Assembly: GCF_004762035.2 (NCBI RefSeq)
Contig: NZ_SIJK02000001.1
Location: 1-64,000 of the forward strand
Source: Candidatus Chloroploca mongolica
GTDB lineage: Bacteria > Chloroflexota > Chloroflexia > Chloroflexales > Chloroflexaceae
Direction of reading: 5' to 3'
Length of the DNA: 64,000 nucleotides
The notes beneath the pieces were generated by a model. The model was given only the letters and a program-made list of their open reading frames with translations. It was not told where the DNA came from and searched no databases. Of this stretch, positions 1 through 18,601 are shown in pieces (within the stretch, counting starts at the first letter, position 1; each line of letters begins with the position of its first letter). A program made the position numbers and the translations under genes.

Positions 1-1
1 G

Positions 2-637
2 GGCAGCAGCAAGGCTGATCCTCTGGCCGAGGAGGATGAGCAACCACAACACATGGCCGCGCCGACTGCTGCACTTGTACCGAGTGCTACGCCAGTAGTG
101 CCACTGGCAACTAAAACACCCAAACCGGCAGAGCAAATTGGTTTTGATTTTACTAACCGAACCCCCGAACACCCAACGGGAGACAGCACTGCTTCATCCC
201 ACATTTTTATTCATAAATATCCTATGCCTGGCGCTGGTTCTATTACGAGAGTGATCTATGTTAATGATAGCGAGTTAGGTCAAGAGATCCCAGAGGCAGT
301 CACTTTACTTATATTACGCCCTGTGACTGGGGGATGGGAAATTATGCACCGCGTTACTCTACCGGATGATGATCGTCCACCTACTACAACAGGAATTACT
401 ACGCTAACACTAGACTTCCCATTACCCGTCGAGACAGGAGATGTCTTTGCTCACTGGCAACCTCGAGCAGCAGGATCTATCCCATTTAATAATGACAGGT
501 CATCTATTGATGGTCGTAGCGTTACGGAAGTCGGTTTCAGTTTTGCAGATATCGAGGAAGGACAGATCATTACCAATAGTGGCTTCATTGGAAGACGGGA
601 CTATTTCATAAACATCATTTTCGAACCGACACCTTAG
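2..637 (+). CDS. Hypothetical protein, 5' end cut by window edge
   Basis: The frame is open from base 2 with no stop upstream, so the gene probably begins outside the window; the first in-window ATG is at 53. I do not recognise the family. The visible part starts with an Ala/Pro/Thr-rich stretch (about residues 1-30 after the ATG) typical of the linker that follows a signal peptide or membrane anchor. A beta-rich, hydrophilic domain of about 150 residues follows, without cysteines. A surface or secreted protein is the likely guess. The DNA is visibly more AT-rich than most of the window, which fits horizontally acquired DNA together with the neighbouring transposase remnant and recombinase. 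Confidence 0.6.
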   Translation, partial: GSSKADPLAEEDEQPQHMAAPTAALVPSATPVVPLATKTPKPAEQIGFDFTNRTPEHPTGDSTASSHIFIHKYPMPGAGSITRVIYVNDSELGQEIPEAVTLLILRPVTGGWEIMHRVTLPDDDRPPTTTGITTLTLDFPLPVETGDVFAHWQPRAAGSIPFNNDRSSIDGRSVTEVGFSFADIEEGQIITNSGFIGRRDYFINIIFEPTP

Positions 638-869
638 TTCGACTTTATCCATCTGCACTGCCTACGCGGCGTAGGCCAGCGCGTCTGTGAGACGAGGGAG
701 GAATGCCTTCGGAATTTTGACCTTGTCGGCTTCCGCAGGCGATATCCAAGAAAGAGTGACGTATCAAGAATGCGGGCGAAGTCCTTGAGCGGGTTGTTCA
801 ACGGCATCACAAAGGGTTAGGCAGTGCGGCCAAGGCCGTGGATCCTGCGTACGGCGTGCGTTCCCTTCC

Positions 870-1719
870 CGATGCAGCGTACCAGCCGGAGGGCCTGAGC
901 CGCACACCGCGCTCGGCTCGCCCTCACGACAGCTTCCGTACGCCCGGCAACGGCGGTTTGCGCAGTACCAGGACGTGGTGGTGCTCGCGGAGCAGGAACT
1001 CGGGCCAACCATGATCGCAGCTCAGGTTGGTCTGACCCGGCAGACCGTCGCGCTCTGGCTGAAAGCGGGGGCCTTTCCCGAGCGCGCGTCTCTCGCACCA
1101 CGAGCAATGCTCGTGACCGCCTACGAACCGTATCTGCGTGAGCGCTGGCAGGCTGGGGGTCAGAATAGGCGTCAACGTTGGCGTGAGGTGCAGGCACAAG
1201 GCTTTGCTGGGGGCAGGAGACCATACGTCGCCTCATTACCGGGCGTGCTTACTCAGGGCCGCAGCGCCAGCCTGTGACGACTGGGCCAGTATCACAGCAT
1301 ACGCCACCACCACCACCGACGACACGTCCGTGGTCACCGCGACAGGCCCGCTGGTTGTTGCGCAAGCCCGAGGTCAAGCTCACGCCAGCGCAGCAGGCGT
1401 ATATCCAACAGCTTGGCCTGGTTTGCCCAGACATTGTGGTTGCTCAGGGCCTGATCGTGGCATTCACCCAGCTCGTGCGGAAGCGTGACAATGCAGCATT
1501 CTGCCCCTGGTTGACAGCAGCGCAGGAAAGTGGACTGCCAAAGCTGATAGAATTTACCAAAAGTATCGTGCGTGATCGAGCGTCCGTAGAAGCCGCGCTC
1601 ACATATCGCTGGTGAAACGGCATCACCGAGGGTCAAATCGGCTCAAGATGATCAAGCGGACGGCATATGGACGCGCCAGCTTCGGGTTGCTCCATCAGCG
1701 CGTCTTGGCAAAACTGTGA
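870..1719 (+). pseudogene. ISL3-type transposase remnant
   Basis: A broken C-terminal half of an ISL3-family transposase. The first piece (to about 1215) carries the internal helix-turn-helix region, with the recognisable words 'GLTRQTVALWLKAG', 'FPERA' and 'YEPYLRERWQAG'. After a frameshift the piece from about 1274 continues with 'SPRQARWLL' and the end of the catalytic domain. An in-frame TGA at 1613-1615 interrupts a W-S-N-G type motif ('ITEGQIGSR' follows). A further shift near 1642 restores the conserved end, 'LKMIKRTAYGRASFGLL', up to a stop at 1717-1719. At least two frameshifts and one nonsense codon mean it is inactive. I did not find convincing terminal inverted repeats, and the N-terminal zinc-finger part is missing or unrecognisable. 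Confidence 0.75.
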
Positions 1720-1974
1720 CGGCATGACGTGAGCACGGGAGATGCGGAAGAGCAGATCTTTCGTGAGGCAGCGATCCCCCCAACGTAAGATTCTCGCGTG
1801 AGGCGCTGCGGACAGCAAATCTAGTTGACATTCAACAGAAAACAGTCAGATGTTGTGTCTTGACAAATGGATCCACCTTACTTTACGGCCGACCTCAAGG
1901 TTATTGATGTGGCCGTGCGTGGTAGGGGGTGGCAAGCGTGCGAGCGCGGCCCGGACGCCGGTGGCTTCTCTGGT

Positions 1975-2095
1975 GTGTGTCAATGCAACCCAACACCCTT
2001 GCCCGCTGGGAGGTTCGCATTGGGAAGGATCGCATCTTCTATGTGATTGACGTCATCGATACAGTGGTACTCGTCAATCAAGTACTCCATAAATA
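1975..2095 (+). pseudogene. Possible RelE/ParE-type toxin fragment
   Basis: A short stretch translates as 'LARWEVRIGKDRIFYVID' and resembles the core strand pair of RelE/ParE-family toxins (pattern W-E-L-R-V-G-x-x-R-V-x-Y). Neither a coherent N-terminal part in the same frame nor an antitoxin partner is visible, so this would be a remnant. The match rests on one short motif and could be chance. Confidence 0.3.
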
Positions 2096-2291
2096 CTTGA
2101 CGGGTTACACAAAAATATGTCTTTGTGAAGAGCTCGACCACGGCACGTTACGCCAGTTAGCGGTGATGACGCCATCGCTTACGACCAATCTTCAGGCCCA
2201 TAACGTGCTGCGGCAAGCAAGCGTCTTGTTGCACACCCGCCTGATGCACCAGCGCCCGGAGCGGGCCATTTGATGGTGGTTCATGTGTGCC

Positions 2292-2783
2292 TTATGTGAA
2301 AACGCTGAACGGCCAGGTCGGCGCAGGCCTCAGGTTGACGATGATCCGCTCCAGGCTCTCATCGCGGATCATGGCCTCGGCCAGCGGTGCGTCCTCGACG
2401 GTGGTGATCACACGCGATATCCAGATCTCGTTCAGGATCAGCCATCCGTCGTCGAGGTTCGCGGCGACATAGATTGGACCTTGGTCGCAAAATTGCGCGC
2501 GGAGCGCCTGGGCACGGGTTGCCGTGGTTGCGTAGATACGCGTTTCCGGTCCGTCGTCGGGCTGGCGCATAGAACCCTCGGCGATGCGCACCTCCGCGAT
2601 CAGTGCGCGCACCAGCGCATTGGGCGGCGGCGAGGCCCATCCAGGGCGACGCACATCCACCGACCCAGCGCGGCCCAATGGCATCGGGGAGCAATGGCGG
2701 TCGGTAGGGTATCCGGTGCGGCGAGGCTTCGCCTCTGACCACGAAGACACCCCTACCCCCGCCATGACCCCAAATTGCCTCAT
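2292..2783 (-). CDS. Hypothetical protein in the integrative region
   Basis: An open frame of 163 residues from an ATG at 2783, preceded by an AAAGAG-like ribosome site; a longer frame opens up to 2867 but has no better start. The C-terminal 90 residues look like an ordinary globular protein (alternating hydrophobics, for example 'GPIYVAANLDDGWLILNE'), while the N-terminal half is basic and Pro/Gly-rich and may be non-native. No domain is recognised. It is divergent from the small gene at 2986 and lies in accessory DNA, so it is plausibly cargo of the element or a decayed gene. Confidence 0.4.
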   Translation of the reverse strand: MRQFGVMAGVGVSSWSEAKPRRTGYPTDRHCSPMPLGRAGSVDVRRPGWASPPPNALVRALIAEVRIAEGSMRQPDDGPETRIYATTATRAQALRAQFCDQGPIYVAANLDDGWLILNEIWISRVITTVEDAPLAEAMIRDESLERIIVNLRPAPTWPFSVFT

Positions 2784-2985
2784 CTTTGACTCTTTTTGAC
2801 TCATTGACACATGTGTGCAATAACGGTACGATACGCTTATCCTCTGGGGATGCGGCGCTGGGCACATTGAGGGAACCCGTCAGGGGGCCAGCATGGCCGC
2901 TTCAGCGTCAGCTATCGGCCCATCAGCATCTTGACAAGGAAGGAAGGTCAGGGTAGCATGGTGGCACGGTAAACATGGAGGATCT

Positions 2986-3219
2986 ATGGCCGGGAACGAC
3001 CGGGCCAACGAAGGACGTCAGGCGGGGGTACCCGCCCGCATTTCCGAAACAACGCATCGTGAGCTACGCTATGTGGCTGCGGTCTGGTCGCTCAGCGCGA
3101 AGGACGGCGCGCCGACGACGATTCGGAGTCTGATTGATCTGGCCTGGGAGACGTTGAAGCAGCAACGCCCAGAGGTGGTTGAGTTGCTGAAACGGGTCGA
3201 TTCAGCCGAGGCTGATTGA
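2986..3219 (+). CDS. Small unknown protein of the integrative element
   Basis: A 77-residue protein with a strong ribosome site (GGAGG six bases before the ATG). The C-terminal part is predicted to be helical ('IRSLIDLAWETLKQQRPEVV') and the N-terminal part is charged. The size and make-up resemble small DNA-binding proteins, such as ribbon-helix-helix or recombination directionality factors, but no family motif is certain. It lies about 500 bases upstream of a large serine recombinase on the same strand, so an accessory role in excision or copy control of that element is a reasonable inference and not a demonstrated one. Confidence 0.55.
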   Translation: MAGNDRANEGRQAGVPARISETTHRELRYVAAVWSLSAKDGAPTTIRSLIDLAWETLKQQRPEVVELLKRVDSAEAD

Positions 3220-3478
3220 CGAAACCCACGGATTCTGCGAACCCACCCGTCGTGCGCATCTGCCCTTCCTTCCGCGACCGATGGGCCTCATGAGGGAGAT
3301 GATTGATGGACGTGCTGCCCCGTTGTGGTTGGCAGGGTCTGCGCAAACGGTTCCTGTCCCCGTCCCGCTTCCTAGGTTGGAAGGATGTCCGTTGGACCTT
3401 CCCATGTGAAGAAGGTGTCGTTCGGGTGGTCTGCCGATGCAGACCACCGCAGTGCTGCCACCTCGTCGGAGGTGGCCA

Positions 3479-3739
3479 ATGAAGCTGACGCATCGTCCGC
3501 GCATCACGGCGCATGTGTGCCACGTTCCCGGCGATCCGGGCGCTGGCTTGACCGAACTCGCCGATGCGCTCCTCATAGTGCGTGCAGAGCCGGCGCTCCA
3601 GGAGGCGTTCCGGATCGCGCATCAGTTCACCAGCGTTGAGGCCCACCTTCATACCCGGCGGCGCACGCTGACGCAGGCCGCTGAGACGCTGCGTGCCCAA
3701 CTCGCTGCGCTGACGGCGCAACTGGGGGAGGCTGCCTGA
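3479..3739 (+). CDS. Small unknown protein coupled to the serine recombinase
   Basis: An 86-residue protein. I chose the ATG at 3479 because GGAGGTG lies just upstream; the longer frame from 3437 has no such site. Its TGA overlaps the recombinase ATG (TGATG), so the two are translationally coupled. The C-terminal half is a predicted amphipathic helix or coiled coil ('LTQAAETLRAQLAALTAQLG') and the N-terminal part is basic. No known family is recognised. The tight coupling suggests a partner or regulator of the recombinase. Confidence 0.6.
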   Translation: MKLTHRPRITAHVCHVPGDPGAGLTELADALLIVRAEPALQEAFRIAHQFTSVEAHLHTRRRTLTQAAETLRAQLAALTAQLGEAA

Positions 3740-5514
3740 TGTCAAAACGTACGGCCCTCTACATTCGGTGTTCCAGTCGCGACCAGGTTGCCCACGGCGT
3801 CAGCATTCCAGATCAGTTGGCTCGCTTGCGGGCAGATGCCGGAACCGCTGGCGAGGTAGTGGTGGCGGAGTACATCGACCAGGCCCGTTCCGGCACGAGC
3901 GCGGCCCGCCGCGAGGAGTTCCAGAAGTTGCTCACGGCGGCCCGCCGCCGTGAGTTTGACCGGGTACGCGTCGAGAGTGTTGACCGCGGCCATCGCAACG
4001 ATATGGAGCGCCGCCAGTTCGAAGCTGAGCTACAGACGTTCGGTATCCAGGTGCTCTATGTCGGTGAGCCGGAGAAGCAGGCCCCGCAGTATCGTAAGTT
4101 GCAGCGCGGTATCCGCGGCGTGCTCGCCGAGTGGGAGGTCGATGAGACGAGCCAGCGCACCTACAAGCGCCATCGCTTTCGTGCCCAGCAAGGCAAGTGG
4201 CGCGGTGGCCCAATCCCGTACGGCCTCCAGCCCGATCGCACCGGCTGGTTCGAGCCTGATCCGGAGACCTACCCGATCTTGCTCTGGATGCTGGAGCGGC
4301 GTGCGGCGAGCCAGGGCTACCACGCGATCACCAAGCAGCTGAACCAGGGTATCGCGCTGGCAGAGGGGCAGCCACGCGAGGTGCCGCCGACCCCCGGTTT
4401 GATCATGTATCGGCGGAAGCCGTACCTAGAGCGCCAGGATCCCGAGACGGGTGAGCTTATCCATGAGCCACGCCCGATGCCCTCCGGCACCTGGACAGTC
4501 TCGACTATCGAGAAGATCTGCAAGCGGGTTTTTGACGGGGTCTATGCTGGCGTCTTGCGCTGGGGTGAACGCTACAACAAATTCGAGGAAGACGCCGATG
4601 GTAATCGCAAACAGGCGGTGCGGGTCGAAACCGGCAGGCCGCTGATCCCTGAGGAACTCCTCCGCCGCGTCCAGGCCGTGGAGTTGGCGGCGCACGAGGG
4701 TGAGGCGGCGACGATGTCGGCCTTCAACAGCTACCTGCTCACGCTCCGTTGTGGTGCGTGCGGAGGCGCGATGCATGGCTATACCAGTACCAAATACAAG
4801 GGAGACAAGACGTATCGGTATCGCAAATATCGTTGTGCCAGACGGGTCAACAAACCTGGCGCATGCCGTATGCCAATGCTCAGCGCCGACGAGCTCGAGC
4901 GCCTGGTACTTGACGTTGTGATGAAGGACATCATTGAGCGTAGCCACGAGGCGTTGGTGGAAGAGATCAACGATGCCATCGCCCGGAAGCACACCGAGTT
5001 GCTCAGCGCCATCGCGGTGGCGGAGGTGCGGCTGCGCGAGTTGGAGGAGCGGCGCGAGGCGGCGCTTGACGCGCTGACCACGCAGTACAAGGGGGTGACG
5101 GAACGCACGCGCGCCGCGTTGGCCGAACAAGCCGACCGAATGGTGTGCGCGTACGATGAGGTGGAGGAGCAGATCCGCAAGCTCCGCCTCGGGATGGCCG
5201 TGATGGACGAGCAGGCGCGGTCAATCATGTTGATCTTGACCGACCCATTGCTTGACCCGTCCCGCTGGCAGGAACCCGAGGCGATCCATGCACTTAAGCG
5301 GGCTTTGAAGCTTCTCGTCCATGACCTGATCCTCAGGGAGAAGGTACCGGGCGAGTTTCATGTGGAGGTACAACTCTATGCAATTCGTCAAAGTCTATTG
5401 CACGAGAGCGCGTGGGAGTCGAACCCACCGACGAAGCTCGTCACCCCGTCCGCTGGTTTTGAAGACCAGGACAGCCACCAGGCCACATCCGCTCTCGCGG
5501 TGATTGTAGCCTGA
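3739..5514 (+). CDS. Large serine recombinase (integrase)
   Basis: A 591-residue site-specific recombinase. Residues 1-145 form the resolvase catalytic domain, with the 'YIRCSSRDQ' nucleophile motif (Ser12 is the likely catalytic serine). This is followed by a Recombinase domain containing 'GKWRGGPIPYGL' (about residues 150-300), a zinc-ribbon with 'LRCGACGGAMHG' and later cysteines (about 335-375), and a long charged coiled coil (about 395-500). The order is typical of large serine integrases. The last 37 or so codons are read antisense through the tRNA-Sec gene and so are probably host sequence joined at integration rather than native recombinase. The upstream coupled small gene and the tRNA position mark this as the integration module of an element extending to the left. 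Confidence 0.92.
   Translation: MSKRTALYIRCSSRDQVAHGVSIPDQLARLRADAGTAGEVVVAEYIDQARSGTSAARREEFQKLLTAARRREFDRVRVESVDRGHRNDMERRQFEAELQTFGIQVLYVGEPEKQAPQYRKLQRGIRGVLAEWEVDETSQRTYKRHRFRAQQGKWRGGPIPYGLQPDRTGWFEPDPETYPILLWMLERRAASQGYHAITKQLNQGIALAEGQPREVPPTPGLIMYRRKPYLERQDPETGELIHEPRPMPSGTWTVSTIEKICKRVFDGVYAGVLRWGERYNKFEEDADGNRKQAVRVETGRPLIPEELLRRVQAVELAAHEGEAATMSAFNSYLLTLRCGACGGAMHGYTSTKYKGDKTYRYRKYRCARRVNKPGACRMPMLSADELERLVLDVVMKDIIERSHEALVEEINDAIARKHTELLSAIAVAEVRLRELEERREAALDALTTQYKGVTERTRAALAEQADRMVCAYDEVEEQIRKLRLGMAVMDEQARSIMLILTDPLLDPSRWQEPEAIHALKRALKLLVHDLILREKVPGEFHVEVQLYAIRQSLLHESAWESNPPTKLVTPSAGFEDQDSHQATSALAVIVA
5403..5496 (-). tRNA. selC: tRNA-Sec (anticodon TCA)
   Basis: On the minus strand this 94-nt sequence folds as a selenocysteine tRNA. 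It has an acceptor arm whose first seven pairs are perfect (GAGAGCG with CGCTCTC), a D-arm around 'GGCCTGGTGGC', an anticodon arm CTGGT-CTTCAAA-ACCAG with anticodon TCA, a long variable arm, and a T-arm GTGGG-TTCGACT-CCCAC. The long variable arm and long acceptor/T stack are hallmarks of tRNA-Sec. The eighth acceptor pair would be G-G. CCA is not encoded. It is antisense to the end of the serine recombinase gene. Its presence implies that the organism makes selenoproteins; the window shows none. Confidence 0.85.
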
Positions 5515-5532
5515 TCTTGTCCTTTGTGTCAA
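5503..5532 (-). promoter_or_regulatory. Sigma-70 type promoter of tRNA-Sec
   Basis: Read on the minus strand, a perfect TTGACA (-35, complement of 5527-5532) is separated by 18 bases from TACAAT (-10, complement of 5503-5508), six bases before the first tRNA nucleotide. This supports a functional tRNA gene rather than a mere attachment-site remnant. Confidence 0.75.
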
Positions 5533-5539
5533 TGCGTTG

Positions 5540-5573
5540 TTTGACGCAACGGCGCAGAGGCGTGAAGGTTTGC
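5540..5573. repeat. Dispersed TTTGACGCAAAGGCGC-type repeat (variant copy)
   Basis: A degenerate copy of a sequence family whose core is TTTGACGCAAAGGCGCAGAG. Other copies lie near 15835, 25027, 36061 and 59881. It is located between the tRNA-Sec promoter and the antitoxin gene. Confidence 0.5.
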
Positions 5574-5682
5574 AGCCGAGCCTGTCAGGATGCACCGACA
5601 CAGGGCGATACCAACACGTCTGTTTGTGTGATAGAATGGCGTACGTAAGCTGTTCGTGGGCCAACACCCCAGAGGGCGGACA

Positions 5683-5991
5683 ATGATTGTTGACATTGAA
5701 CTGACGCGGCGAGCACATGATCGCTACGTTGCACGAGCACTCCAGTTCCCAGATGTCGAGGTTGAAGCGGTCTCACGTGAAGCTGCGCTTGCCCAAATAC
5801 GCGAGGCCCTCACTGCGCGTCGTCGTGCTGGCACCGAGATCGTTCAGATAACCATTGAGAACGGCAGCGCCGCACTCCAAACGGTCTGGCCTCGTCATGC
5901 CGGCACCTTTCCCGATGACGAAGCGTATCGCTTGATGCTTGCCGACGTAGAGCGTCAGCGCCGTGAGCTTGACGAGGATTCTCAGGCGTGA
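5683..5991 (+). CDS. VapB/HicB-like antitoxin
   Basis: A 102-residue protein; the ATG at 5683 follows a GGGCGGA ribosome site and is preferred over the upstream start at 5656. The N-terminus ('ARALQFPDVEVEAVSREAA', with a following helical repeat) looks like the HicB/UPF0150 partial RNase H fold. The C-terminal part ('DDEAYRLMLADVERQRRELD') is the charged, helical toxin-binding tail usual in antitoxins paired with PIN toxins. Its TGA overlaps a GTG start that begins a PIN-domain toxin, the usual vapBC arrangement, but that toxin is truncated. The antitoxin therefore appears to be an orphan left after loss of its toxin. Confidence 0.65.
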   Translation: MIVDIELTRRAHDRYVARALQFPDVEVEAVSREAALAQIREALTARRRAGTEIVQITIENGSAALQTVWPRHAGTFPDDEAYRLMLADVERQRRELDEDSQA

Positions 5992-6053
5992 CGTTTCTCC
6001 TCGACACAGACCATGTCAGTATCTGCGCCTCGGGTCAATTCTGGCAACATTAG
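5988..6053 (+). pseudogene. Truncated VapC (PIN-domain) toxin start
   Basis: A GTG start overlaps the antitoxin stop and encodes 'VTFLLDTDHVSI', the unmistakable first strand of a PIN-domain toxin with its first catalytic Asp. After about 14 residues the similarity ends, and a stop follows at 6051-6053. The rest of the toxin has been replaced by unrelated DNA carrying a GntR remnant, so it is a deletion remnant. Confidence 0.65.
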
Positions 6054-6247
6054 ACGACCAGATGTATCGGATCCGCGTTCTCCTCCCACGCTCGGCGGGG
6101 TGGATCGCAGAGGCCGAGCATGAGCACCGCGCCGTTGTTGCGCGGATTAACGATCGTGATGGTGACGGGGCCGCACAGGCGATGGAGCGACACCTGCGCG
6201 CTTCCTGCGACCGGGCTATCCGCCTGGTTCTGCCGATTCAGCGCTGA
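6035..6247 (+). pseudogene. GntR/FadR-family regulator, C-terminal remnant
   Basis: The frame ending at 6247 encodes about 68 residues that match the end of the FCD ligand-binding domain of FadR-subfamily GntR regulators: 'LDDQMYRIRVLLPRS', then 'EHEHRAVVARINDRDGDG' and 'MERHLR'. The DNA-binding domain and most of FCD are absent. The piece abuts the VapC stub directly, so one deletion probably fused the two remnants. Confidence 0.6.
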
Positions 6248-6357
6248 ACCTTGGCACCCACGTGCAAGCCGCTCCGGTCTCCCGACGCTTCACGTACCGA
6301 TGTTCCTGTGTCCTACGTACGTGATCGCAGTTCTATCCAGAAAGTGTACCGCATCCT

Positions 6358-6951
6358 ATGACAAGCCTCGCCATCCTCGGTGCCTTAGGAACGCTCATCG
6401 GCCTGGTTCGCGCAATGCCACAACTTGTCCTGCTGCTACGCACCCGCCATGCCTACGGGGTCTCCGTCGACACGGCTGCCACTAGTTCTATTGTAAGCTT
6501 CGGCTGGGCTACTTATGGGTTGTGGACCAATCAGTTCTATGTCAGCCTCGCTACAGGGGCCTCCGGCGTTGTCTTTGCGATCATTACGGTGTTGGCCCTC
6601 CGCTTTGGACGTCGGGTCCGCGAGTTCGCTATCGCACCCGTCTGGCTCGTCGTTCTGCTTCTCGCCGCTGGGCTGGGAGGGACGACCGGGCTCGGCATGA
6701 TCCTTCCCGTTAGCGTGCTCGCCGCGAATGTTCCCCAGCTTTGGGTCGCCTCGCGCGAAGGCAATCTCGCCGATGTATCGTTGGGTACCTGGCTTCTCTC
6801 GATGGCCGATGGGCTCGTCTGGGGTCTCTACACGCTCATCCAACCGGATATGGCGATTATGATCTTTGCCGGTTTGCAACTAGCGACAAGCGGCGTGATC
6901 GTAGCCATGAAGCTTGCCCATATGCTGCGACTGTCACGCCAGCCGGCGTAG
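6358..6951 (+). CDS. PQ-loop/SWEET-like membrane protein
   Basis: A 197-residue, very hydrophobic protein with about seven predicted membrane helices and two PQ-loop signatures, 'RAMPQLVLLLRTR' (about residues 19-31) and 'ANVPQLWVASREGN' (about 122-135). The two half-repeats suggest an internally duplicated semiSWEET-like carrier for sugars or other small solutes; the substrate cannot be told from sequence. The start at 6358 has no clear ribosome site. It is convergent with gatB and appears to be a single-gene unit. Confidence 0.7.
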   Translation: MTSLAILGALGTLIGLVRAMPQLVLLLRTRHAYGVSVDTAATSSIVSFGWATYGLWTNQFYVSLATGASGVVFAIITVLALRFGRRVREFAIAPVWLVVLLLAAGLGGTTGLGMILPVSVLAANVPQLWVASREGNLADVSLGTWLLSMADGLVWGLYTLIQPDMAIMIFAGLQLATSGVIVAMKLAHMLRLSRQPA

Positions 6952-7015
6952 CCCCCACCCTTTCCCCAGGCCTATGCCGAGCGCGGCTGGCGCAGCCTGC
7001 CGCGCTCGCCATCCT

Positions 7016-8473
7016 TTACCCCAGTTCTTGCTCAAGCAACGTACGCACTTGCTGCGGGTTCGCCTGCCCTCGCGTTGCTTTCATGACCATGCCTACCAAA
7101 AATTGTACCGCGCTCGTTTTGCCTCCACGGTATTCGGCGATCGCTTTGCTCGCTTTGCTGTCGGCGAGTACGTCGCGTACGATGCTTAGCAGGGCGTCGC
7201 TGTCGTTGATCTGCGTGAACCCGCGCTCGACGACGATCTGCGCCGGCGCAGCGCCAGTGTCAAAGCTGACTTCAAAGACTTGCTTGGCAATGCTTCGTGT
7301 GATCGTGCCGTTGGCAATGAGTTCGATCACTGCGGCGATGTGACTCACGGGCATGCGTTCGCTGAGCTGCGTCGGCGCTTCGCCACGCTCTTTTAAGAGC
7401 CGGAAGCCTTCGTTTAAGACCCAGTTGGCGACGTCTTTTGGGCTGCCGCCGCTCGCTTCTGCTGCCGCAACCGCTGCTTCGTAGTAGTCGGCAATTGAAC
7501 GCTCGAGCGTCAATAGATCGGCGTCTTGCAGGCTCAGTCCGTACGCACGTTCAAAGCGCTCGCGCCGTGCGTCAGGAAGTTCAGGCAACTCTTCGCGGCG
7601 CGCAGCGATCCAGGCCGCATCCAGTTCCAACGGTGGGATGTCGGGTTCGGGAAAGTACCGGTAGTCGTGGGCGAATTCTTTCGACCGCTGACCAACGGTC
7701 TCCCCTTTGAATTCATCCCAACCGCGGGTCTCCTGGACAAGGGTTCCGCCCGCTTCAAGTACCGCCGTCTGGCGCTCGATTTCGTACGCCAGCGCGCGCT
7801 CGACAAAACGGAACGAGTTGATGTTCTTGATTTCAACTTTTGCTCCGTAGGCCTCTTGCCCTTCCGGGCGCACGCTCACGTTGGCGTCGCAGCGCAACGC
7901 TCCTTCCTCCAGGTTGCCGCTGTTGACCCCGATCCAGACCAGGATCTGCCGGATCTTCTCAAAATAGAGCCGCGCTTCCTCGGGGGTGGTTATATCCGGA
8001 TGACTCACGATCTCCATCAAGGGCACGCCGCTGCGGTTGTAGTCGATCAGCGAGCCACCCTCGTCGGCATGCAAGAGCCGCCCGGTGTCCTCTTCGATGT
8101 GAATTCGCTCGATGCCGATCCGTTTCTCCACGCCGTCGCTCCGTCGAATCGTGAGCGAGCCTTCGGAACAGAGCGGCTGGTCGTATTGCGAGATCTGATA
8201 CCCTTTGGGAAGATCGGGATATGGATACGATTTTCGACTGAAAACCGAGCGTTCGTTGATTGTGCATGTCAGCGCCAGGCCACTCAGCGCGGCCATTTCC
8301 ACCGCACGTTGATTGACGACTGGCAGTGTCCCCGGCAAGCCGAGACTCACCGCCGAGACGTAGGTATTTGGTTCGGCCCCGGCATAGTCCGACGGGCAGC
8401 CGTCAAACATTTTTGAGGCTGTCTTGATGTGGGCATGGATCTCCAGGCCGATCGTGACAAGATAGGTGGGCAT
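7016..8473 (-). CDS. gatB: Asp-tRNA(Asn)/Glu-tRNA(Gln) amidotransferase subunit B
   Basis: A 485-residue protein of normal GatB length. The N-terminal catalytic cradle begins 'YLVTIGLEIHAHIKT' and contains 'SYPYPDLPKGYQISQYDQP' and 'GVPLMEIVSHPDI'. The C-terminal part is the YqeY-like tRNA-binding tail. GatB phosphorylates Glu- or Asp-charged tRNA and, with GatA and GatC, amidates it in the cytoplasm. GAGGAG precedes the ATG. It follows tyrS by 23 bases on the same strand, so the two probably form an operon; gatA and gatC are not in the window. Confidence 0.96.
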   Translation of the reverse strand: MPTYLVTIGLEIHAHIKTASKMFDGCPSDYAGAEPNTYVSAVSLGLPGTLPVVNQRAVEMAALSGLALTCTINERSVFSRKSYPYPDLPKGYQISQYDQPLCSEGSLTIRRSDGVEKRIGIERIHIEEDTGRLLHADEGGSLIDYNRSGVPLMEIVSHPDITTPEEARLYFEKIRQILVWIGVNSGNLEEGALRCDANVSVRPEGQEAYGAKVEIKNINSFRFVERALAYEIERQTAVLEAGGTLVQETRGWDEFKGETVGQRSKEFAHDYRYFPEPDIPPLELDAAWIAARREELPELPDARRERFERAYGLSLQDADLLTLERSIADYYEAAVAAAEASGGSPKDVANWVLNEGFRLLKERGEAPTQLSERMPVSHIAAVIELIANGTITRSIAKQVFEVSFDTGAAPAQIVVERGFTQINDSDALLSIVRDVLADSKASKAIAEYRGGKTSAVQFLVGMVMKATRGQANPQQVRTLLEQELG

Positions 8474-8496
8474 AGGCTCCTCGTTTGAACGTAGCC

Positions 8497-9669
8497 TCAG
8501 ATGATGCGGATAAATTTGCGGCGACCAACCTGGATGACGACGTTAGCCCCAGGGCTCACGGTCTGTTCATAGCTGGTGACGCGCTCGCCATCAAGTTTGA
8601 CCCCGCCACCGTCAATGAGGCGCCGCGCTTCACTCTTCGACGCAGCTAGCGCTGCGGTGACCATCACCTCAATGATGCTCACCGGCGCGTCAAGTTGGTG
8701 CTCGGGGATCACTTCGGGCAGTTCGCGGTTGACAAATTGCCGAATGAACGCCTCTTCCGCCGCCTGTCCGTCAGCTGGGCTGTGGAACTGCGCCACCACT
8801 TCGCGGGCCAGGCTCATCTTGAGGTCGCGTGGGTTGACGCTGCCTTCAGCCAGACTCTGCCGGATTGTGGCAACTTCGCTCATCGGGCGGTGGCTCAACA
8901 CTTCAAAATAGAGCGGCAAGACTTCGTCGCTCATTGACATAATGCGACCAAACATTTCGTTCGGGGGCATCCGAATATCAACCGTATTGAGGAACGTCTT
9001 GCTCATTTTGCGTCCGTCGGTGCCGGGGATCAAGGGCACCAGCAAGACCTGTTGCGGCGTCATGCCGAGTTGACCCATCAGTTCGCGGCCAGCCAGGATA
9101 TTGAACTTCTGATCGGTGCCGCCAAACTCAACATCGGCGTTGATCGCAACTGAATCATAGGCCTGCAACATCGGATACATCAACTCAAGGATGGTCAGAG
9201 GTGTCCCGGAATCATACCGTTTGCGGAACGTCTCGTGCGCGAGCATCTGCGCAAGGGTAAAGCGTCCGGTCAGGTCAAGCGCCTGCTCAAGCGTGAAGGT
9301 GCCAAACCACTCGCTCTGCCAGCGTACCTCGGTGCGTTGCCGATCAACCACGCGAAAGAACTGTTCCATGTAGGTCTCGGCATTTTGCCGTACCTCATCG
9401 GCTGTCAGGCGTGTGCGCGCCTCGTCGCGGCCCGACGGATCGCCAATCTGCGCCGTCCAGTCGCCAACAATCAGGACGACCTGATGCCCGAGATCCTGGA
9501 ACATGCGCAGCTTGCGCAGGCCCACCGCGTGACCAATATGCATATCGGGTTTGGTCGGATCAAAGCCCTGTTTGAGACGCAACGGCTTGCCCGCAGCCAG
9601 GCGCTGACGCAACTCTGCCTCGACAATCACCTCGGCTACCCCGCGCGACAAGAGATCATTCGGCTCCAT
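8497..9669 (-). CDS. tyrS: Tyrosyl-tRNA synthetase
   Basis: A 390-residue class I aminoacyl-tRNA synthetase. 'DPTKPDMHIGHAVGLRKL' carries the HIGH motif (about residues 40-48) and 'GTDGRKMSKTF' the KMSKS-type motif (about 225). The C-terminal 65 residues form an S4 RNA-binding domain ('EARRLIDGGGVKLDGERV'). The overall pattern is the TyrRZ-like bacterial subtype. The enzyme activates tyrosine and charges tRNA-Tyr. It is the first gene of a probable tyrS-gatB unit. Confidence 0.96.
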   Translation of the reverse strand: MEPNDLLSRGVAEVIVEAELRQRLAAGKPLRLKQGFDPTKPDMHIGHAVGLRKLRMFQDLGHQVVLIVGDWTAQIGDPSGRDEARTRLTADEVRQNAETYMEQFFRVVDRQRTEVRWQSEWFGTFTLEQALDLTGRFTLAQMLAHETFRKRYDSGTPLTILELMYPMLQAYDSVAINADVEFGGTDQKFNILAGRELMGQLGMTPQQVLLVPLIPGTDGRKMSKTFLNTVDIRMPPNEMFGRIMSMSDEVLPLYFEVLSHRPMSEVATIRQSLAEGSVNPRDLKMSLAREVVAQFHSPADGQAAEEAFIRQFVNRELPEVIPEHQLDAPVSIIEVMVTAALAASKSEARRLIDGGGVKLDGERVTSYEQTVSPGANVVIQVGRRKFIRII

Positions 9670-9761
9670 CTGTCTCTCTCTTCATGATAAGCAAGCGTTC
9701 TCGCAGGGGGTATTGTACACCAAAAAGCTGATCATCTGGCACTGGCCTGTGCTACAATCTC

Positions 9762-9838
9762 CGTAGGGGCGAAGCACCCGCCCCTGCCGGATCTCGAAGC
9801 TGTACCGTGCGCACACGGGCGGGTGCTTCGCCCCTACG
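9762..9838. repeat. Palindromic repeat, GTAGGGGC family
   Basis: An inverted repeat with arms beginning CGTAGGGGCGAAGCACCCG and ending in its near-perfect complement, separated by about 35 bases. Related palindromes with a GGGCACCCGCAAGGGGTGCC core lie at 21961-22031 and 36104-36175. Confidence 0.7.
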
Positions 9839-9906
9839 TAATACGCGTCATCGCTCGTTCTGGTGACGCATCGCACCACCAGAACAAGCAAAGAACGGAA
9901 AGTCTC

Positions 9907-10680
9907 ATGTTTCGACGTTTTCTGGCCCTCTTCGCCCTCGTTCTCCTCGTGACACTCAGTGGCTGTGGTGGTACACCCGCTGCCAGCTCTGCAACCGAGG
10001 TTCCTCCCGCACCGGCAACGGCTGTGGCGGAACGAACCCCGGTTCCGCCTGCACCAACAGTGGCTGAACCCACTGCCGAGCCATCTGCTGAACCCACTGC
10101 TGAGGCTACTACGTCAGTTGCTGGCGATGCCGCGACCCCTGAAATTGATCTGAGTGGCCTCCTCGGTGGTGGCGTCGGAGCCGGTGAGACCGTGACTAAT
10201 GAACTCGGCTATTCCCTGGTCGTTCCTGAGGGCTGGACGGTTCTGATGAATGTTGCTTTTGAGGGTACTGGCGCGGTGATGATGGTGCCCGAAGGTACCG
10301 ATCCGATGGAAGGTCCTGATGAGAATGTTCTTGCCATCAATGTTGGCGACTCTTCGGTTGTCTTTGATGAGGCTGCGTTGCCGCCAGATGCGAGTCTCGA
10401 TGATCTCCTTGACTCATTTCAGAATCAAATGATCGAAGAAGATCCGACGGTGACGGTAAGTGATGTGGAAAATGTAAGCATCGGTGGCCTGCCCGGACGT
10501 GCCGTCAATATCACTGGTTCTGTGCCCGATACTGATGATGAGGTCTTTGTGCGCCTCGGGATCGCGCGAATCGATGATGCTCGCATTGTAACCGTCATTG
10601 GCATCGCGACTCGCGAGCTCTGGAATCCTGCCTCCGTGGATAGTGTCTTTGCGTCACTCGATCTGAGTGGGCTGGAATAG
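9907..10680 (+). CDS. Putative lipoprotein with PsbP/DcrB-like domain
   Basis: A 257-residue lipoprotein. The ATG at 9907 begins a clean signal sequence ending in the lipobox L-S-G-C (Cys near residue 19). A Pro/Ala/Thr/Glu-rich linker follows (about residues 20-85) and then a C-terminal beta-rich domain starting 'NELGYSLVVPEGWTV', which resembles the fold of PsbP/DcrB-like extracellular lipoproteins. The molecular role is unknown. It is followed 24 bases later by another lipoprotein gene, so the two are probably co-transcribed and may act together at the outer face of the membrane. Confidence 0.75.
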   Translation: MFRRFLALFALVLLVTLSGCGGTPAASSATEVPPAPATAVAERTPVPPAPTVAEPTAEPSAEPTAEATTSVAGDAATPEIDLSGLLGGGVGAGETVTNELGYSLVVPEGWTVLMNVAFEGTGAVMMVPEGTDPMEGPDENVLAINVGDSSVVFDEAALPPDASLDDLLDSFQNQMIEEDPTVTVSDVENVSIGGLPGRAVNITGSVPDTDDEVFVRLGIARIDDARIVTVIGIATRELWNPASVDSVFASLDLSGLE

Positions 10681-16888: not shown

Positions 16889-18601
16889 ATGTCTGCACGT
16901 CGCAAACGTTGGGAGCTCGCGCCGCCTGCATCCTCCGAATTTACCAGGGCTACCGGGCTGAGTCCTTTGCTCGCGACGTTGCTCTATCAGCGTCAGCAAC
17001 ATACTCCGGAAACAATTGCGGCGTTTCTGACTGACGATCACCGTACCGGCCTGCATGATCCGTTTTTGATGAAAGGTATGGCGGAAGGTTGTGATCGTAT
17101 TCTGCATGCTATTCAGCATGAAGAGAAAATCGCGATCTATGGTGACTTTGATACTGATGGTGTCACGGCGGTCACCTTGCTGATCCAGGCCTTGACGGCG
17201 ATGGGGGCACAGGTGCAGCCCTACATTCCCCATCGTACCCGTGAGGGGTATGGGCTCAATGTTTTTGCCATCAACGAACTGGCCTCGCGTGGGGTGCAAC
17301 TCTTGATCACGGTTGATTGTGGCATCAGCAATGTGGTTGAGGTTGCCGAAGCAAAGCGACTTGGGCTCGATGTAATCATTACCGATCACCACCAACCCCA
17401 TGCTATTTTGCCCGACGCGCTGGTTGTGATCAATCCGAAACAGGCTGGTTGTTCCTACCCCTATAAAGATCTGGTGGGGGTTGGCATTGCCTACAAACTG
17501 GTGCAGGCGCTGGTTCGACGCGGGTTGACGTTGAACGGGTTGCGTGGGCGTGATCTGCTTGATGTGGTTGCCCTGGGCACGGTGGCTGATATGGGGCCAC
17601 TGCATGGCGAAAACCGCACCCTGGTGAAGATGGGGCTCAAGGCGATCCATTCCTCTGAACGGCCCGGCCTCAAGGCGTTGATTGAGCTTGCTGGCTTGCG
17701 GCGGAGTGCCGTGACGGCGACGGATATCGGGTTTGCGCTGGGGCCGCGTCTGAATGCGGCGGGCCGCCTCGATGATGCCGTGCGCTCGTATGAACTCTTG
17801 CTTGCCCAGGATGCGCCAACTGCCGTTACGCTCGCCCAGGCGCTGAATCAAGCCAACCGCGAACGACAGGATTTGACGAAACGTGTCCAGACCGAGGCGC
17901 AGGCGCTGGCTGAGGCAACTGGTCTGGCGCAGCGACGGTTGGTGCTGCTTGCGCACGAGGAGTTTCCCGCCGGGGTGCTGGGCCTGGTGGCGGCGCGCCT
18001 GGTTGAAGAATGGGCGCGTCCAGTGCTCTTGATCGAACGTGGCGAAGGCGAGTCTCGTGGCTCGGCGCGTTCGGTGCCGGGTTTTAGTATCATTGACGCG
18101 CTCACGCAGTGCCAGGATCTTTTTGTCCGGTTTGGAGGCCACGCGGCTGCGGCTGGCTTTACCATTCACACGCTGCGTCTGCCTGAACTTGAAGCACGGT
18201 TGCTGGCGATCGCGGAACAGCACCTTACTGATGAGATGCTGGTGCCGCGGCTGTTGATTGATGCCGAAGTTGAACTGAATAGGCTTGACTGGGGTCTGCT
18301 TGAGGAACTCAAACGGCTCGAACCCTTTGGTCAGGCCAATCCAATACCGGTGCTGATGAGCAGTCGCGTTGAGGTTGTTGATGTGCGAACCCGTGGGGTA
18401 GGGGGGCAGCATCTGCGTTTGGTGGTGCGCAAGAATGGTACAACCTACGAGGCGATTGCCTTTCGCATGGGCCACCTTGCCGATGCGGTGCGCCGCCATC
18501 CGCTGCTCGATCTCGCCTATACCTTCGAGGACGACGAGTGGAATAACGACCGCCGCTTGCAGTTGAAGATCAAGGATTTCCGTCGAGCGACGCAGGGGTG
18601 A
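16889..18601 (+). CDS. recJ: Single-stranded-DNA-specific exonuclease RecJ
   Basis: A 570-residue DHH-family 5'-3' exonuclease acting in recombination and repair. The DHH-family metal motifs are visible: 'IYGDFDTDGVTAV' (about residues 81-93), 'ITDHHQPH' (about 163-170), and the DHHA1 domain with 'RFGGHAAAAGFTI' (about 415-427). A C-terminal OB-like domain follows. An AAAGAGAGG ribosome site precedes the ATG. Its last 32 bases overlap the 3' end of the convergent HD-GYP gene. Confidence 0.95.
   Translation: MSARRKRWELAPPASSEFTRATGLSPLLATLLYQRQQHTPETIAAFLTDDHRTGLHDPFLMKGMAEGCDRILHAIQHEEKIAIYGDFDTDGVTAVTLLIQALTAMGAQVQPYIPHRTREGYGLNVFAINELASRGVQLLITVDCGISNVVEVAEAKRLGLDVIITDHHQPHAILPDALVVINPKQAGCSYPYKDLVGVGIAYKLVQALVRRGLTLNGLRGRDLLDVVALGTVADMGPLHGENRTLVKMGLKAIHSSERPGLKALIELAGLRRSAVTATDIGFALGPRLNAAGRLDDAVRSYELLLAQDAPTAVTLAQALNQANRERQDLTKRVQTEAQALAEATGLAQRRLVLLAHEEFPAGVLGLVAARLVEEWARPVLLIERGEGESRGSARSVPGFSIIDALTQCQDLFVRFGGHAAAAGFTIHTLRLPELEARLLAIAEQHLTDEMLVPRLLIDAEVELNRLDWGLLEELKRLEPFGQANPIPVLMSSRVEVVDVRTRGVGGQHLRLVVRKNGTTYEAIAFRMGHLADAVRRHPLLDLAYTFEDDEWNNDRRLQLKIKDFRRATQG

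Follow-up and report, generated by a model that had tools for sequence, protein, structure and literature searches.

A large serine integrase gene ending inside selC: a Chloroploca element probably integrated at the 3' end of the selenocysteine tRNA gene

How does a recombinase gene come to end inside a host tRNA gene? The question is raised by the 64,000-nt window analysed here (C72:1-64000 of the source genome, a Chloroploca-related genome designated G000), in which the initial annotation had described a serine integrase frame running antisense through a complete selenocysteine tRNA gene (selC). That arrangement was confirmed by the ORF listing, ARAGORN, Rfam, Pfam and PHROG. Two relatives of G000, which like it are green filamentous Chloroflexi, are referred to below, Ca. 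Chloroploca asiatica (G001) and Ca. Chloroploca sp. Khr17 (G002).

The integrase frame and the tRNA gene it enters

The features of the locus are as follows.

1-5402, no strand: right-hand part of the integrated element; the remaining left part is on other contigs, with its left end at G000:C83:2644
2986-3219, plus strand: 77-aa ORF, conserved upstream of the integrase in related elements (G014:C280, 87% aa identity; also G074:C49)
3437-3739, plus strand: 100-aa ORF overlapping the integrase start (TGATG), conserved upstream of the integrase in G002, G014 and both G074 integrases
3739-5514, plus strand: large serine integrase ORF, 591 aa (ORF listing, Pfam, PHROG)
5384-5392, plus strand: distal arm of the attP left half (TTCGTCAAA), at a distance of 16-24 nt from the centre; the attP of the LI/A118 integrase has its zinc-ribbon-domain motif there
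5403-5409, no strand: attR core CGAGAGC, the block identical with attL; it extends to 5411 (CGAGAGCGC) in G000
5407-5408, no strand: predicted crossover dinucleotide AG; the attP dyad is centred at 5408
5403/5404-5496, minus strand: intact tRNA-Sec (selC), anticodon TCA (ARAGORN, Rfam)
5497-9669, no strand: host DNA flanking the 5' end of selC, conserved with G001 (locus comparison)
7016-8473, minus strand: gatB-like gene of the host flank, named from its translation alone
8497-9669, minus strand: tyrS-like gene of the host flank, named from its translation alone

By its sequence, ORF 3739-5514 is a large serine integrase. It contains a resolvase domain (PF00239, E 1.8e-19) with the catalytic serine motif YIRCSSRDQ at residues 8-16 and a recombinase zinc ribbon (PF13408, E 7e-11), while the recombinase domain PF07508 scores marginally below its cut-off (20.9 against 21.1 bits); Cys338, Cys341, Cys366 and Cys376 are invariant. 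The ORF matches PHROG_95 ('integrase', E 1.8e-67), and the profile of its family matches PDB chains of the TP901-1, A118/LI, SPbeta YokA and phiC31 integrases. Two long helices (residues 403-448 and 455-500) that would qualify as a coiled coil are predicted in an AlphaFold model of moderate quality (mean pLDDT 67). These domains, together with a short core and an attP of about 50 bp with inverted distal motifs (see below), are those of large serine integrases. Searches of IMG/VR with the integrase-end and core sequences gave zero matches, and the only relatives in phage and plasmid collections share about 23-27% amino acid identity with the integrase.

Residues 1-557 are encoded by the element, through the core inclusive, while residues 558-591 are read from host DNA, namely tRNA-Sec in antisense and then five codons past the tRNA 5' end. 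The tRNA gene (RF01852, 70.8 bits, E 1.8e-12) lies wholly within the 3' end of the ORF on the opposite strand; its 3' terminal 6-7 nt are the end of the element and the remainder is host sequence. The antisense frame is open in 65 of 71 tRNA-Sec copies from related loci (the copies are redundant), so the overlap alone is not significant. The tRNA should keep its promoter, as follows from its untouched 5' side, and selC is probably in use in G000 because this genome has SelA, which was found in all three Chloroploca.

The element itself is incompletely assembled. The pieces read carry a DnaC-like loader, a ParM-like actin and an MNT/HEPN pair, with a P4-type primase in G031, and no capsid, tail or packaging genes were seen in them. 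The 100-aa ORF has no match in Pfam, PHROG or NCBIfam, and the 77-aa ORF no family match. The replication and partition genes are consistent with an integrative element that is plasmid- or phage-like.

Attachment sites at the two ends of the element

Position 1 of the window is a contig edge; the left end of the element therefore cannot be inside the window, and attL is on another contig. It was located at G000:C83:2644 (minus strand), which reads ..GCAGATCTTGG/CGAGAGCGC/AAGGAAGTTTTTTCGCACGAA, by a search with a junction sequence from G001:C93; the two sequences are homologous from precisely the first base of the core onwards, and the far side of the junction reads ..TATCGCAGCATCGCAGATCTTGG. 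A second attL lies at G002:C27:2972 (minus strand), ..GTAGTTGG/CGAGAGC/ACATGCACTATTTTTTTCACGAA (flank also given as ..CTATCGCCAGTAGTTGG), with its attR partner at G002:C67:8044. Both attL flanks have TGG at their end, complementary to an encoded CCA; the integrase side of attR has no such triplet. Thus, these flanks are displaced 3' ends of selC. attL and attR are on separate contigs and their pairing is inferred from homology. Integration at the 3' part of selC, as proposed in the initial annotation, is supported by both sites, each consisting of a displaced tRNA 3' end, the core and the left end of the element. The expected duplicate of the attachment site thus exists, although it is a core of only 7-9 bp, CGAGAGC(GC), rather than a long tRNA 3' segment of the kind usual for tyrosine integrases. 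Homology between independent junctions breaks at this same block (5403-5409).

The integrases fall into a type A, found in G000, G001, G007, G018 and G038, and a type B, found in G002, G014 and G074 and as remnants in G000 and G001. At the G001:C93 junction, which has no tRNA, a type B integrase end (..GAAATTCGTGAAAATGGCTCGTTCGAGAGCGC) runs on into AAGGAAGTTTTTTCGCACGAAAGTGC, beyond which are a 604-aa ORF, a DnaC-like loader, an MNT/HEPN pair and a ParM-like actin. This is an attP-like junction, at which the end of the element meets the end of an integrase gene. The same C-terminus away from selC, named in the initial annotation as evidence against integration, occurs in no close homologue, and this sole tRNA-less end has a different tail after the core.

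Joining the element halves gives deduced attP sites of 49 bp for G002 (TTCGTGAAAATGGCTCGTTCGAGAGCACATGCACTATTTTTTTCACGAA) and G000 (TTCGTCAAAGTCTATTGCACGAGAGCGCAAGGAAGTTTTTTCGCACGAA), whose inverted outer arms occupy positions 15-24 nt away from the centre of the core; in the listeriophage LI integrase system, attP positions 16-24 are bound by the zinc domain (PMC3783163). The arms form a 10-bp perfect inverted repeat in G002 (p ~1e-4, run-length test with shuffling) and are weaker in a G001 hybrid (6 bp, p 0.02) and in G000 (5 bp, p 0.09); the test was chosen after the arms had been seen, and these p-values are indicative only. Total-match palindrome scoring of the att sites was not significant, since the symmetry is confined to the distal arms. 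The attB deduced by joining the attL and attR flanks shows no inverted arms in the run-length test and little symmetry. A pattern made of the core and the P' arm occurs in the 82 genomes of the order at exactly the three known sites and at one other, in G041.

These junctions point to the following mechanism, to which we assign a probability of about 0.92. An integrase with attP at the 3' end of its own gene would recombine attP with an attB site in host selC, at the 3' end of that gene, the crossover falling inside CGAGAGC, which comprises the last acceptor-stem nucleotides and the discriminator. The last 6-7 nt of the tRNA would then come from the element and rebuild the gene, while the displaced original end (discriminator, CCA and downstream flank) would become attL at the far end. 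The free circle junction would read integrase end-CGAGAGCGC-AAGGAAGTTTTTT, and a restored attB ..GCAGATCTTGG-CGAGAGCGCGTGGG... The regeneration of the target envisaged in the initial annotation would thus hold for the tRNA body and not for the encoded CCA, which is missing after the integrated tRNA, stays with the displaced fragment and would be added after transcription by tRNA nucleotidyltransferase. Whereas the architecture, the att junctions and the tail exchange are established by direct reading of the sequences, we infer that this integrase itself performs the reaction at selC and that AG is the exact dinucleotide. The weak dyad in G000 itself and the low symmetry of the deduced attB count against this mechanism; no very close strain with an empty selC site turned up.

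Several other sequences near these sites were recorded. A type B integrase fragment (G000:C83:3588-3968, minus strand; 98% nt identity to G002) lies about 950 bp outside attL, which suggests an earlier element at the same site. At a syntenic locus in two species (G000:C84:17866-17909 and G001:C108:25451-25494) there is a degenerate copy, 44 nt long, of the tRNA-Sec 3' end; it has the same CCA and is accompanied by about 22 nt of a downstream flank closely similar to that of attL. It was considered as attL and rejected, being too long for a serine core and sitting between other genes rather than at an element end; it may have been displaced by a different element that arrived earlier. Adjoining it is a dispersed repeat of about 360 nt (G000:C84, about 17940-18302; 98% to G002:C84:55340), of which many partial copies exist in Chloroploca. 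An attempt to define the far end from empty and occupied Chloroflexus selC loci (G033, G029, G038) was abandoned, as the left flanks share only the tRNA end.

Exchange of the integrase tail

Since attP lies within coding sequence, the C-terminal tail of the integrase is replaced by the crossover: the free form would end in ..ESARKFFRTKVLLPRRLAYLRDSAS, and the integrated form in 34 residues read antisense from selC. From the junctions, the free-form tail is ..LLHESARKFFRTKVLLPRRLAYLRDSAS for the window integrase and ..SFESTCTIFFTKTTIPRRYVPWQEEVAA for that of G002, while integrated-form tails read ..ESAWESNPPTK..ALAVIVA. Residues 548-591 are predicted to be disordered, so the exchange is probably tolerated. 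Both tails would presumably give an active protein.

For large serine integrases, the direction of recombination is normally set by a directionality factor distinct from the enzyme, which weighs against a function of the tRNA-derived tail itself. Such a function, an addition to the main explanation, would have integrated and free integrases differ in activity and so help set the direction of integration or excision. The tail is replaced at every integration, the motif FFxTKxx(L/I)PRR is common to the free tails of two elements that are otherwise divergent, and comparable exchange recurs in the rumA integrative conjugative elements (ICEs) of streptococci (PMC4701971); however, the shared motif may merely reflect a constraint of the DNA on the P' arm of attP, and the tail lies in the segment that the moderate model predicts as disordered. 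We regard a functional tail as unlikely. Somewhat more doubtful is a broader version, in which the swap would act as a sensor of the integrated state (for example, by blocking excision or re-integration) and antisense transcription of the integrase gene through selC would link element activity to the supply of selenocysteine tRNA.

Recurrence at selC and known systems

Close integrases are present in only 8 of 158 genomes of the class, and a scan of 84,980 species genomes returned the same few carriers. Within the bacterial family, 10 of about 33 readable selC loci have an integrase or its remnant, the others being empty. Integrases enter selC at the identical base and frame (GAG AGC GCG, 'ESA') in G000, G001, G002, G007, G014 and G031, and remnants or a frameshifted copy occur there in G005, G018, G024 and G038, so that recurrence in several genera is evident from the sequences. 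As the integrases abutting selC are only 57-73% alike in amino acids, their common junction base and frame are more than chance. Integrase type does not correspond to host relationship, which suggests repeated arrival of elements at selC.

In G031 (an assembly with k=119), the integrase contig stops 7 nt into the tRNA and shares exactly 119 bp with the tRNA contig; the corresponding break in G074 lies 12 nt inside the tRNA. Such breaks would be expected if the sample contained integrated as well as excised (or tandem) forms; an unrelated branch upstream could also account for the one in G031. G074 has a second integrase (C545:11334-12532; 89% aa identity to the window integrase), whose 3' part is missing at the contig end and which adjoins an ORF that, judged by its translation, encodes a group II intron-type reverse transcriptase. 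Type A and type B integrases (window 3888-4188 against G002:C67) are 98-99% identical in nucleotide sequence over a few hundred nucleotides of the catalytic domain and 60-70% identical over most of the remainder, suggesting mosaicism from recombination between co-resident elements.

Tyrosine integrases are the usual tRNA-targeting class (PMC4383910), and another integrase of this kind might have placed the element at selC with the serine recombinase gene a mere neighbour; the length of the 44-nt tRNA-Sec copy is more typical of fragments displaced by tyrosine enzymes. That copy, however, is not at the end of this element, the serine integrase abuts the junction in every case with base and frame kept among relatives, and the 7-9 bp core and attP geometry are those of large serine integrases, which makes such an origin very improbable. 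That the integrase is an old chromosomal gene beside selC whose frame enters the tRNA by chance, as the open antisense frame of most related genomes might permit, is scarcely credible, because it is contradicted by the attL and attP junctions (an attL with a displaced CCA and an integrase end without tRNA), most family genomes lack an integrase at selC, and the host genes flanking selC differ between integrase-bearing genera.

Serine-integrase insertion at the 3' end of selC, the preferred reading, can be set beside several known systems. Enterobacterial selC islands are an example of Islander-type tRNA islands. In such islands too the tRNA is rebuilt by the element and the displaced tRNA end lies at the far side, but their integrases are tyrosine enzymes with long cores (PMC4383910). 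The present element, as far as it is assembled, likewise has an intact tRNA at one end and a displaced tRNA 3' end at the other, and the neighbour of selC is a serine recombinase. Published precedents for serine integrases at tRNA genes are few, in line with the rarity noted in the initial annotation. The integrase of the Ralstonia filamentous phages phiRSM1 and phiRSM3 acts at tRNA-Ser; this enzyme is resolvase/invertase-like and attP lies between orf14 and orf15, so that, in contrast to the situation here, no integrase tail is exchanged (PMC4471427). Mycobacterium AICEs carry serine recombinases in tRNA-Leu (eight related cases) and are likewise serine integrase elements in a tRNA gene, with another tRNA and another host phylum; the accessible portion of that report describes no overlap of integrase and tRNA (PMC3218068). 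Closest in the exchange are the streptococcal rumA ICEs, with repeats of 2-21 bp of which one copy is in the integrase gene; there, as here, the core repeat lies inside that gene and integration swaps the 3' parts of integrase and target, altering the Int C-terminus, whereas their target is a protein gene rather than a tRNA (PMC4701971).

A Herpetosiphon geysericola prophage integrase of the same lineage (36% aa identity) also runs antisense at its 3' end into an apparent target, which differs in being a YifB/ComM-type Mg-chelatase-like ATPase gene, apparently cut short (L089/L107; L089:7754-8905 and 8733-10436). As this relative overlaps a different gene, the lineage may characteristically carry attP at the integrase end while the target varies. 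In the openly readable literature, no precedent was found for a serine integrase at selC or for an integrase whose frame continues through a tRNA; both the combination and the role of selC as a hotspot for serine integrases look new.

Integration into tRNA genes is usually ascribed to tyrosine integrases. Here, selC is a recurrent target of a serine integrase family in several genera belonging to a single bacterial family, and for two species the att sites are resolved to within a few bases. A core of 7-9 bp would suffice to rebuild the tRNA, with CCA left for post-transcriptional addition. The locus thus provides a testable set of integrase, attP and attB for a highly conserved tRNA sequence, and a clean case for asking whether the change of the integrase tail on integration has a function.
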